NCBI GenBank assembly: GCA_021792185.1
Contig: JAJYVD010000018.1
Span: 1 to 42,645 of the forward strand
DNA from: Nitrospirota bacterium
Lineage (GTDB): Bacteria > Nitrospirota > Thermodesulfovibrionia > Thermodesulfovibrionales > Dissulfurispiraceae
Direction: 5' to 3'
Length of the DNA: 42,645 nt
The notes below the pieces were generated by a model. That model searched no databases. It saw only the letters and a program-made list of their open reading frames with translations, and was not told the DNA's origin. The position numbers and the translations under genes are program-made. Shown here one piece after another: positions 4,683-15,347 of this stretch (position 1 is its first letter; every line of letters starts with the position of its first letter).

Positions 4683-5112
4683 CTATTCCCTCTATAATTA
4701 CCTCTCTCGTGCTGTCGTCCATAAAGTTCATCTTAACGATTATCGAGTCTTCGGGGATTTCCGAGAGCCTTTCAGCCCACTCGATGACGGCAATTCCACC
4801 CGATCCTATATATTCCCATATGCCGAGATTATCTATATCCCCTTCCCGCTCCACCCTGTAAAGGTCTATATGATAAAAAGGCGGAGAGGTTTCGTATTCG
4901 GCGGCGATCACAAAGCTGGCGCTCCCTATATCCCTTCCGGCAATGCCGAAGGCCGATGCCACGCCTTTGACAAATACCGTTTTACCGGCGCCGAGATCTC
5001 CATAAAGCAGCACTGTGCCTTTGCCGTTTGCCTTTAAAAACCTTCCGAGTTTAAACCCCAGTTCTTCCGTTTCAGACGGAGAATTTGTAATAATCCGCAG
5101 CTCATGGCCCAT
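4657..5112 (-). CDS. tsaE: tRNA threonylcarbamoyladenosine biosynthesis ATPase TsaE
   Basis: The ATPase partner of TsaB/TsaD needed to make t6A37 on ANN-decoding tRNAs. The P-loop GDLGAGKT lies at 38-45, and the family motif HIDLYRVE follows in the middle of the 151-residue protein. The ATG at 5112 has no clear Shine-Dalgarno. The start sits within short repeated words (ggctcatagc, ggccatgagc) next to a tandem GCTATCA array, so the first few residues may be repeat-derived. The gene runs into nadK with a 26-nt overlap. Confidence 0.94.
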   Translation of the reverse strand: MGHELRIITNSPSETEELGFKLGRFLKANGKGTVLLYGDLGAGKTVFVKGVASAFGIAGRDIGSASFVIAAEYETSPPFYHIDLYRVEREGDIDNLGIWEYIGSGGIAVIEWAERLSEIPEDSIIVKMNFMDDSTREVIIEGIDEENWDHM

Positions 5113-5165
5113 GGCTCATAGCTAATAGTCTTTTGCTATCAGCTATCAGCTATCAGCTATCAGCT
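5113..5165. repeat. Tandem 7-bp repeat (GCTATCA x4), family E
   Basis: Four exact copies of GCTATCA occupy 5135-5162 and a partial unit runs into the stop codon of the CBS gene (5164-5166). A degenerate inverted counterpart (ctcatagctaatag) lies at 5115-5128. It fills the whole gap between tsaE and the CBS gene. Repeat number could vary between strains by slippage. Confidence 0.7.
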
Positions 5166-5613
5166 ACTTCATCATCACTTTAATCATATCGATCTTGCCG
5201 ATTATGCCGATAATCTTTTTGCCGTCGACAACAGGAATCAGATGCACCATCTTCTCCGCCATAATGGTCGCTAAATCCTCAACAGGCGTGTCTCCGGTAA
5301 CGGTTATAACGTCCTTTGTGCAGATATCATCCACCGTAACTGCCGCCATTCTCTTGATCTCTTTTTCAAGCCTGCCCGGGCTTTCGAGCATTATAAAGGC
5401 ATCGAACAGCCTGACGACGGTAGGGATGTGGAATCTCTTGTTCTGGCTTATAAGGTCGTTCTCCGTGACAATGCCGGACAGGTTGCCGTCTGCGTCCACA
5501 ACCGGCGCTCCGCTGATTTTATGCTCTATGAGAGTACGCGCAAGTCCCTCTATCGTGGTCGTTGGACTGACAGTTATTATATCCCTTGTCATTATGTCTT
5601 TAGCCTTCAGCAT
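5164..5613 (-). CDS. CBS-domain pair protein
   Basis: A 149-residue stand-alone pair of CBS domains. Domain 1 covers about residues 7-60 (AKDIMTRDIITVSPTTTIEG...GAPVVDADG) and domain 2 about 90-145 (VDDICTKDVITVTGDTPVED...IPVVDGKK), so this is one Bateman module. Such modules sense adenosine nucleotides and regulate partner enzymes or transporters; the partner is not identifiable here. The ATG at 5613 has a very good AAGGAG five nt upstream. The stop codon overlaps a GCTATCA tandem repeat. Confidence 0.9.
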   Translation of the reverse strand: MLKAKDIMTRDIITVSPTTTIEGLARTLIEHKISGAPVVDADGNLSGIVTENDLISQNKRFHIPTVVRLFDAFIMLESPGRLEKEIKRMAAVTVDDICTKDVITVTGDTPVEDLATIMAEKMVHLIPVVDGKKIIGIIGKIDMIKVMMK

Positions 5614-5635
5614 AGTATCTCCTTTTTATACTTAA

Positions 5636-5666
5636 ATTACACAGATTTTATCAGATTACACAGATT
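5636..5666. repeat. Left inverted repeat of the GxxExxY cassette (family H)
   Basis: A 31-nt sequence made of two ATTACACAGATT-like halves. Its reverse complement recurs at 6034-6064 on the other side of the GxxExxY gene with 24 of 31 positions identical. This copy overlaps the gene's stop codon (5665-5667). Confidence 0.7.
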
Positions 5667-6033
5667 AAAACACAAATCTTTTGATTTGACAACTCTTATT
5701 TCCAAAATTAACTAACAAGCCAACCTTCAGATTAGATGCCTTTAAATAAGAAAGCACCTGGTATTTAAAAATATCTGGAATATTCCCAGATACTGCCTTA
5801 ATTTCAACTATAACTTTATCCTCAATAACTAAATCTGCAACAAAATCACCTGCTTTTCTACCCCGATAATAAACTCCAAATCGTTTTTCCGTTTCGTATT
5901 TTAATCCCTCCTGTTCAAAGTCTAATTTAAGAGCAGCATGATATACCCTCTCATTAAATCCAGGACCTAAATCGGAGTGAACCCTGTAACAACATGCTAT
6001 TATCTGTTCTGTAAGAGGGTCTCTATTTTCCAT
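5665..6033 (-). CDS. GxxExxY protein (PD-(D/E)XK nuclease-like fold)
   Basis: A 122-residue protein of the GxxExxY family, whose function is unknown and whose fold is related to PD-(D/E)XK nucleases. The signature G25-F-N-E28-R-V-Y31 is present, and VADLVIEDKVIVEIKAV matches the D...ExK catalytic core of that fold. The ATG at 6033 has no Shine-Dalgarno, and an AATCTGTGT-type repeat sits directly upstream. A matching inverted repeat sits at the stop codon. The gene and its flanks fill the space between pgeF and the CBS gene exactly, which suggests insertion as a unit. No transposase is present. Confidence 0.85.
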   Translation of the reverse strand: MENRDPLTEQIIACCYRVHSDLGPGFNERVYHAALKLDFEQEGLKYETEKRFGVYYRGRKAGDFVADLVIEDKVIVEIKAVSGNIPDIFKYQVLSYLKASNLKVGLLVNFGNKSCQIKRFVF

Positions 6034-6064
6034 AATCTGCGCAATCTATATTAATCTGTGTAAT
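6034..6064. repeat. Right inverted repeat of the GxxExxY cassette (family H)
   Basis: This is the partner of 5636-5666 in inverted orientation. The outer 12 nt (ATTACACAGATT) are identical in both copies and the middle differs. It begins immediately upstream of the GxxExxY start codon and ends 4 nt before the pgeF stop codon. Confidence 0.7.
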
Positions 6065-6068
6065 CATG

Positions 6069-6776
6069 TTAGACAATCCCTATGAATCCGCACTGTCTGC
6101 CTGTAACACCCTTCATATGCCGGTACGAATAATATTTTTCGGGCAGGCAGGAGGTGCATTCTTCCGACATCCATACATTGTCCGCCGGAACTCCCGAAGA
6201 AAGCGCCTGATATTTATTCGCGGTGGGCAGATCAAGGCAGTATTTTTCACCTTTTTTAATTATGTAGTCCTTTGATCTCTTAACTCCTAACTCTGAACTC
6301 GTCACTTTCTCAACCGCCTCAACAACTTCGTATCCTACATTATAACAACACCACCGTATTCCGGTACCGACGGCAATCAAGATATCGTCCGGCGATGAGT
6401 AAAACCTGTCCGTCATAGCCTGTATCGTGTTCTTCAATATCCCGGCTGCGGTTCCCCTCCATCCGGCGTGAACGGCGCCTGCTATGCGCCTTTTAGCATC
6501 ATACAGAAGAACAGGCACGCAGTCCGCAGTTTGAACGCCTATCAGAATACCTTTTCTGTCTGTAATAACGGCATCGGCTATCTTAGGTTCAAGCTCATAA
6601 TCGACAGCCAAAACCTTATCCGTATGTTTCTGAACGGGCAGATATATATTATTCGCTGCTATGCCGGCTATCTTTGAGACGGCATCCTTATCGCAGCCTG
6701 ACGCCTTTGTTGTGAAAAAGGCCGTTACGTGCGATCCGTTAAATATAGGAGGGATTACTATGCCGTATGTCGTCAT
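6069..6776 (-). CDS. pgeF: Polyphenol-oxidase/laccase-fold protein PgeF (YfiH): peptidoglycan editing and purine nucleoside hydrolysis
   Basis: A 235-residue member of the DUF152/YfiH family. Members correct mis-incorporated peptidoglycan stem residues or cleave purine nucleosides by phosphorolysis. The metal-site residues are visible in order: H of KHTDKVL, C of QTADCVPVLL and H of VHAGWRGTAAG. A short insert (SSELGVKRSKD) between the two C-terminal strands is encoded by a taactcctaac-type repeat. The start lies 2 nt after the histidine-kinase stop, so it is the last gene of that operon. The ATG has only a weak Shine-Dalgarno. Confidence 0.93.
   Translation of the reverse strand: MTTYGIVIPPIFNGSHVTAFFTTKASGCDKDAVSKIAGIAANNIYLPVQKHTDKVLAVDYELEPKIADAVITDRKGILIGVQTADCVPVLLYDAKRRIAGAVHAGWRGTAAGILKNTIQAMTDRFYSSPDDILIAVGTGIRWCCYNVGYEVVEAVEKVTSSELGVKRSKDYIIKKGEKYCLDLPTANKYQALSSGVPADNVWMSEECTSCLPEKYYSYRHMKGVTGRQCGFIGIV
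6277..6300. repeat. Dispersed repeat, family D, inside pgeF
   Basis: A copy of the taactcctaactctgaactc-type sequence. It is in frame and encodes SSELGVKRSK in PgeF. The same words, read in the same frame, give LGVKS at the end of the uracil-DNA glycosylase. Confidence 0.45.
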
Positions 6777-14924: not shown

Positions 14925-14971
14925 TCAATATATAGAGCGAGGAGTTCCCCCATTTTTTTGTTTCTTTGTCC

Positions 14972-15000
14972 GTCATTCCCGCGAAGGCGGGAATCCATTC
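14972..15000. repeat. Left inverted repeat of the GIY-YIG cassette (family F)
   Basis: A 29-nt sequence starting GTCATTCCCGC and continuing into GCGGGAATCC. It is itself a dyad (ATTCCCGC-gaag-GCGGGAAT). The reverse complement recurs at 15319-15347 with changes in the centre. It lies just downstream of the GIY-YIG stop codon. Confidence 0.75.
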
Positions 15001-15003
15001 TTA

Positions 15004-15297
15004 TTATGTAGTTAAGCTGTCATATAAATCCGTCCATTCGGGATTATGTTCCTCGATAAGCTTGAGTTTCCATACCCTATTCCATCTTTTCATTTGCCTT
15101 TCCCTCGATAATGCCGTCTCGGCATTCTCTGCAACTTCGTAGTAAACAAGTCTGTGAACCCCATATTTCTTTGTGAAACCTTCAACTAAGCCGTTTTTAT
15201 GTTCATAAACTCTTTTAGTCAGATTCGAGGTTGCCCCTATATACAAGGTCCCTCTTTTTCGGCTGGCTAAAATGTAAACGTAAAAACTTTCTTTCAT
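15004..15297 (-). CDS. GIY-YIG nuclease-domain protein
   Basis: A 97-residue single-domain protein of the YhbQ/UvrC-N-like GIY-YIG family. The motifs appear in order: YVYIL at 6-10, LYIGATSNL, then R...H near KRVYEHK. A conserved Glu follows near the middle (YYEVAENAETA). Such small proteins may nick or cleave DNA, but their cellular role is mostly untested. The gene is enclosed by inverted copies of a CATTCCCG-type repeat, 3 nt after its stop and 22 nt before its start. An AT-rich TAAAAT lies 6 nt upstream of the ATG. There is no Shine-Dalgarno. Confidence 0.85.
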   Translation of the reverse strand: MKESFYVYILASRKRGTLYIGATSNLTKRVYEHKNGLVEGFTKKYGVHRLVYYEVAENAETALSRERQMKRWNRVWKLKLIEEHNPEWTDLYDSLTT

Positions 15298-15318
15298 CTG
15301 CAGATTTTATTTAGAGAA

Positions 15319-15347
15319 AATGGATTCCCGTTTCCACGGGAATGACG
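15319..15347. repeat. Right inverted repeat of the GIY-YIG cassette (family F)
   Basis: This is the inverted counterpart of 14972-15000: GGATTCCCG...CGGGAATGAC. The outer parts match (ATTCCCG and CGGGAAT), while the loop is different (tttccac against cgaaggc). Together with the left copy it encloses the GIY-YIG gene in about 376 bp. Confidence 0.75.

Follow-up and report, generated by a model that had tools for sequence, protein, structure and literature searches.

As described by Bertels and Rainey (2011, PMC3116915), the REPIN-RAYT system ties a small gene to short inverted repeats, places gene-less hairpin doublets across intergenic DNA, and has distinct repeat groups that go with distinct proteins. 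Intervening sequences of rRNA genes offer a second comparison; the Coxiella IVS, for example, is selfish, measures 428 nt and contains an S23 ORF (PMC4990558). Insertion sequences and MITEs have terminal inverted repeats around one gene, along with short gene-less relatives. A fourth point of comparison is the Cas4/RecB/lambda-exonuclease/MGME1 branch of the PD-(D/E)XK nucleases.

The window analysed here is a 42,645-nucleotide stretch of a Nitrospirota genome (GCA_021792185.1, contig JAJYVD010000018.1) and contains a gene of the GxxExxY family between inverted repeats. Like REPIN-RAYT, GxxExxY units combine a small gene with inverted repeats, gene-less doublets, and group-specific pairing of repeat and protein. 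Unlike REPIN-RAYT, they iterate their motif within each arm, occur as several subtypes per genome, and extend a single subtype across many phyla. RAYT is a tyrosine transposase (Y1/HUH), the trait that defines its family, whereas the GxxExxY protein is predicted to be of PD-(D/E)XK type and matches no transposase profile, only PDDEXK_3 and TIGR04256. By analogy, the unit is best read as working in the manner of REPIN-RAYT, with a nuclease that is unrelated to RAYT and each such nuclease having its own cognate repeat.

The other three systems each overlap with the unit in part. An rRNA intervening sequence with an S23p ORF is also a selfish unit of ~430 nt with one small ORF, and the four-helix-bundle family of S23-type proteins is bracketed by inverted arrays in the present material too; an IVS, however, lies within rRNA, whereas the GxxExxY unit lies between two protein genes and encodes a protein unrelated to S23p. 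With insertion sequences the unit shares terminal inverted repeats and presence or absence at an orthologous site, but it has no known transposase, and it terminates in arrays built from a motif of 7-13 nt. With the Cas4/RecB/lambda-exonuclease/MGME1 branch it shares the fold and the D, ExK and QxxxY residues, although the protein is a stand-alone one of ~120 aa, encoded within its own repeats, and neither a helicase nor a CRISPR partner is seen. GxxExxY proteins are widely annotated without an assigned role. In the literature searched, which lay largely outside subscription journals, two papers name the family but do not treat its function, and none of six repeat sequences tried occurs.

The GxxExxY element and its protein

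The element occupies positions 5636..6064 on the minus strand, about 430 bp, and is the only GxxExxY copy in its own 2.65-Mb genome. Its gene (5665..6033, minus strand) encodes 122 amino acids and lies between two arms of 32 nt each that are 78% complementary, the longest pair among the inverted pairs listed in 12.5 kb. The arm on the gene's 3' side (5636..5667, ATTACACAGATT ... AGATTACACAGATTA) is an inverted array covering the TAA stop codon (5665-5667), and the arm at the 5' end (6033..6064), with which it pairs, touches the ATG. Each arm is a direct repeat of a GATTACACAGATT-like sequence. The inverted-repeat alignment score of the element is 33, a value reached by none of 5000 dinucleotide shuffles (maximum 27), and the 40 nt preceding the start codon show no Shine-Dalgarno sequence. 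An earlier note on this DNA had described inverted repeats at the stop and directly before the start, in place of a normal ribosome-binding site; the repeats are real and the site is absent. RNA folding predicts that both arms form one long stem of ~29 bp with the entire gene in its loop (z -3.75).

Both neighbouring ORFs are on the same strand as the gene. The upstream one (6069..6776, minus strand), which we take from reading its sequence to be laccase-domain, PgeF-like, has its stop codon separated from the array by 5 bp; the downstream one (5164..5613, minus strand) is, on the same basis, presumably CBS-domain-like. An AGTAT-(9)-ATACT palindrome at 5614..5632, 3 nt outside the left arm, holds the AAGGAG of the downstream gene in its loop. 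Its 5-bp stem is weak on its own, and it resembles the strong edge palindromes seen elsewhere in the window's clade.

The protein exceeds the curated cut-offs of both family profiles, TIGR04256 (NCBIfam; E 6e-39, 133 bits against a cut-off of 35) and PF13366 PDDEXK_3 (Pfam; E 1e-35, 122.9 against 22). Its AlphaFold2 model has a mean pLDDT of 95.7, with Cas4-like 4ic1 as the best fold match (Z 10.0) and Cas4-like and other RecB-type PD-(D/E)XK nucleases as the nearest solved folds. Residues D67, E77, K79, Q92, and Y96 (the last two forming QxxxY) are invariant across 26 diverse GxxExxY sequences. A D, an ExK motif, and QxxxY are the residues expected of the RecB/Cas4 branch. The protein has both the fold and the D...ExK residues of the PD-(D/E)XK superfamily, the fold being that of a RecB/Cas4-like nuclease with its predicted catalytic residues kept. 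Kinship to phage T7 endonuclease I was considered and set aside, the hit having an E-value of only 0.95.

Packaging and repeat type across the family

Packaging by inverted arrays is general among GxxExxY genes. In a sample of 103 full-length genes at class and phylum level, chosen by protein profile alone, 76 are bracketed by inverted arrays of short motifs at an inverted-repeat score of at least 28 between the flanks, compared with 3 of 226 control ORFs from the same loci (Fisher p 3e-47). Shuffles attain that score in 0.12% of cases, and by the same measure about a quarter of the genes are missing a clear inverted flank. The comparison of flanks across loci proposed in the earlier note therefore comes out in favour of the association. 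The arms are arrays of a short motif with a period of ~8-14 bp, and different genes have different motifs, among them GATTACACAGATT, CACAGAG, CACGAAG, GCGCAAAG, CACGGAT, CACTGAGGA, and CAGGAT. Copies in Bacteroides and Bernardetia plasmid records have the CACAGAG form. A Fusobacteria plasmid (CP102406.1, L277) carries a GxxExxY gene between direct, not inverted, AATCRGTGAAAAT...AATCCGTGTACCTAT repeats.

Each GxxExxY subtype has one matching repeat, which follows the protein subtype rather than the genome. Repeat similarity rises with protein similarity (Mantel 0/300), and mapping the repeat types onto the protein tree takes 34 changes, compared with 70 once the labels are shuffled. A genome signature is ruled out as the source of this match because no permutation of repeats among the copies of a single genome recovers it (0/1000), and leakage from coding sequence is ruled out by non-coding post-stop DNA alone, with which the correspondence still holds (0/500). 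It is weaker for distant protein pairs: below a protein score ratio of 0.6 the nearest-foreign-relative counts balance (32 vs 35), and the correspondence is therefore strongest among fairly close relatives.

The sample of named genomes covers the window's clade only, with 60 named loci from many phyla. Nearly all intact copies there have GATTACACAGATT or near variants, and GATTACACAGATT or a one-base variant is kept in WOR-3, Deltaproteobacteria, Elusimicrobia, Omnitrophota, Atribacteria, Nitrospirota, and others. Such cross-phylum pairing of nuclease and repeat suggests that a class of minimal DNA able to spread itself has been overlooked. The correspondence gives the family a testable role, and it offers many natural pairs of a small nuclease and a target motif for studying the evolution of DNA specificity.

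GxxExxY genes lie on the strand of their upstream neighbour at 91 of 99 loci (91 to 8), with co-orientation also at 33/3, and on the strand of their downstream neighbour at 77 of 93, neighbouring genes being defined by a simple rule for ORFs. Such co-orientation fits a dependence on, or preference for, read-through transcription.

Insertion and gene-less copies

The unit of the window behaves as an insertion, because two congeners (G058 and G150) have the same two neighbours at the same place, separated by a spacer of ~40-60 bp with neither gene nor arrays. No target-site duplication was found; at the insertion site in the window the flanks have diverged too far to reveal one. In a family of the same class, five genomes carry the element at the fsa-fmdB site, one of them as a decayed copy, and 17 do not, one of the latter having a gene-less CACAGAG hairpin there instead.

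At the filled fsa-fmdB sites (L247, L248, L250, L263, L267), a copy of the last fsa codons directly follows the stop, and this flank copy is inverted, not direct. The resulting palindromes at the fsa end have stems of 8, 7, 6, 6, and 3 bp, compared with 1-4 bp at sites without the element. The inverted copy tracks each genome's own codons, so that the palindrome varies in step between genomes; it may have been created at insertion or may be maintained by selection. A hairpin containing the ribosome-binding site precedes fmdB at these sites. Edge palindromes with a stem of at least 7 occur at 19 of 70 edges in the GATTAC subtype vs 1.3%. They were rejected as a general feature, being confined to that subtype and not clear in the others (2/142). 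Decayed GxxExxY copies with stops or truncation are common. Carriage as phage or plasmid cargo was also rejected, with matches to just eight plasmids and one phage (2 records).

Dispersed gene-less inverted doublets, as in REPIN-RAYT, are found for the CACAGAG type and, in relatives, for the GATTACACAGATT type. CACAGAG doublets reach 153 copies per genome, and adjacent CACAGAG arrays less than 600 bp apart are convergent in 11 of 11 cases, at a spacing of 29-173 bp. The gene is present in 34 of 49 genomes with at least five CACAGAG copies and in 23 of 347 others (p 2e-22, with kinship ignored); the GATTACACAGATT 13-mer behaves similarly, at 17 of 26 against 19 of 124 genomes, again ignoring kinship. 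These counts were tallied by hand from result tables. The window's own genome has one further exact copy of the 13-mer outside the element.

The check on repeats with and without the gene, as suggested in the earlier note, gives a divided answer: repeat flanks of the gene are common, but most repeat copies in relatives have no gene. This gene-less majority fits derivative copies rather than a refutation of the link between repeat and gene, and common dispersed repeats such as CACAGAGGCACAGAG may have originated from such units. Neither G148 (153 CACAGAG copies) nor G128 (34 GATTACACAGATT copies) has a GxxExxY match, which could reflect recent loss or a missing contig. Together with G164 and G205, they hold 34-153 gene-less repeat copies per genome with no match in the search.

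Proposed mechanism and alternative explanations

With moderate confidence, we interpret the unit as a minimal mobile element in which a RecB/Cas4-type nuclease gene lies within inverted arrays that are its cognate recognition sites. The element would insert between genes along the direction of transcription and be read from the neighbouring operon. The nuclease would recognise its own iterated inverted motif, probably in hairpin or single-stranded form, and cut or nick at the array edge; this would start a movement that host repair or replication completes. DNA between two arrays may be mobilised with or without the gene, giving rise to gene-bearing and gene-less copies, the shorter gene-less ones being putative non-autonomous derivatives dispersed through genomes. 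Packaging, the subtype match, and insertion behaviour make a nuclease tied to the spread of its own repeats the leading reading, in agreement with one half of what the earlier note had suggested; for the other half, protection of the repeats, no evidence was found. Points against this reading are the lack of any target-site duplication found, the repeat-rich genomes in which the gene has no match, and the quarter or so of GxxExxY genes that miss a clear inverted flank by the score used. The mover could also be something else, because non-nuclease four-helix-bundle genes are packaged alike.

The most probable of the alternatives is a passenger at the RNA level like the 23S rRNA intervening sequence: the arrays would form a double-stranded stem in the operon transcript, the small protein would bind its cognate stem, and host machinery rather than the nuclease would do the copying. 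Non-nuclease TIGR02436 proteins (S23/IVS-type) occur in the same architecture with covariation of repeat and protein, and the Coxiella IVS provides a precedent. The long RNA stem enclosing the whole gene, the strong co-orientation with the upstream gene, and the hairpins that, in the window's clade, overlie a host gene's stop codon and ribosome-binding site also accord with it. Its weakness lies in the protein, which has a DNA nuclease fold and invariant nuclease residues unneeded by a mere passenger, and we regard this explanation as unlikely.

Homing is a lesser candidate and quite improbable. Under this explanation, the arrays would be older repeats moved by other means, and the nuclease gene would invade by cutting gene-less copies, in keeping with the gene being missing from most repeat copies in relatives. 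Repeat and protein type nonetheless go together, both inside a single genome and between phyla, the empty sites seen have no array, and the window's own genome holds only one further exact 13-mer copy outside the element.

Arrays over the start and stop codons that pair in RNA would also suit an ordinary gene, inherited vertically, that regulates itself through binding or attenuation at these sites, as would cognate pairing of repeat and protein. This regulatory reading is strongly disfavoured and has very little probability, given presence and absence between congeners, spread across phyla, and many gene-less copies elsewhere. A chance inverted repeat beside an ordinary gene has a negligible probability and is ruled out by the dinucleotide shuffles, with the same arrangement present in 76 of 103 relatives.

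Other genes bracketed by inverted repeats

The window contains a second bracketed unit, as had been reported, with a GIY-YIG gene (15004-15297, minus strand) within 14971-15347 between 29-nt inverted repeats that are 86% complementary and of GTCATTCCCGCG..GCGGGAAT type. Among relatives in the class, 15 of 29 GIY-YIG genes are bracketed, by one widespread palindrome type. No covariation of repeat and protein is detected for them (rho 0.07), and cognate repeat pairing is rejected for this family.

TIGR02436 is a four-helix-bundle family to which the S23-type proteins of rRNA intervening sequences belong. Of 150 genomes in the class, 111 carry its genes, and 24 of the 30 genes inspected (L310-L339) are bracketed by inverted arrays with motifs such as ATCAGCTATCAGC, GTTGACAGTTCACAG, and GGCACAAAGGCACAAAG, among others. 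Repeat type tracks protein type here as well (permutation 0/1000).

The strategy shared by small nucleases that the earlier note had proposed thus survives in its packaging, since GIY-YIG genes are often bracketed, but not in its nuclease basis, because the non-nuclease TIGR02436 genes are bracketed alike. The common principle is a small protein, presumably nucleic-acid-binding, inside its own repeats rather than nuclease chemistry. At somewhat less than an even chance, GxxExxY and four-helix-bundle units, and perhaps GIY-YIG units, make up a wide and so far undescribed group of minimal elements in bacteria. Each would pair a small nucleic-acid-binding protein with an iterated inverted motif of its own and would spread inside genomes and between phyla, the gene-less hairpins being derived from it. 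If so, many interspersed repeats of bacterial genomes that now lack an explanation would be the repeats of such elements.

At 5102-5165 of the window, a solo GCTATCAGCTATCAGCTATCAGC array lies beside a short inverted partner. This repeat type occurs around some TIGR02436 genes, and copies of it are dispersed in the window's own genome and in those of congeners.
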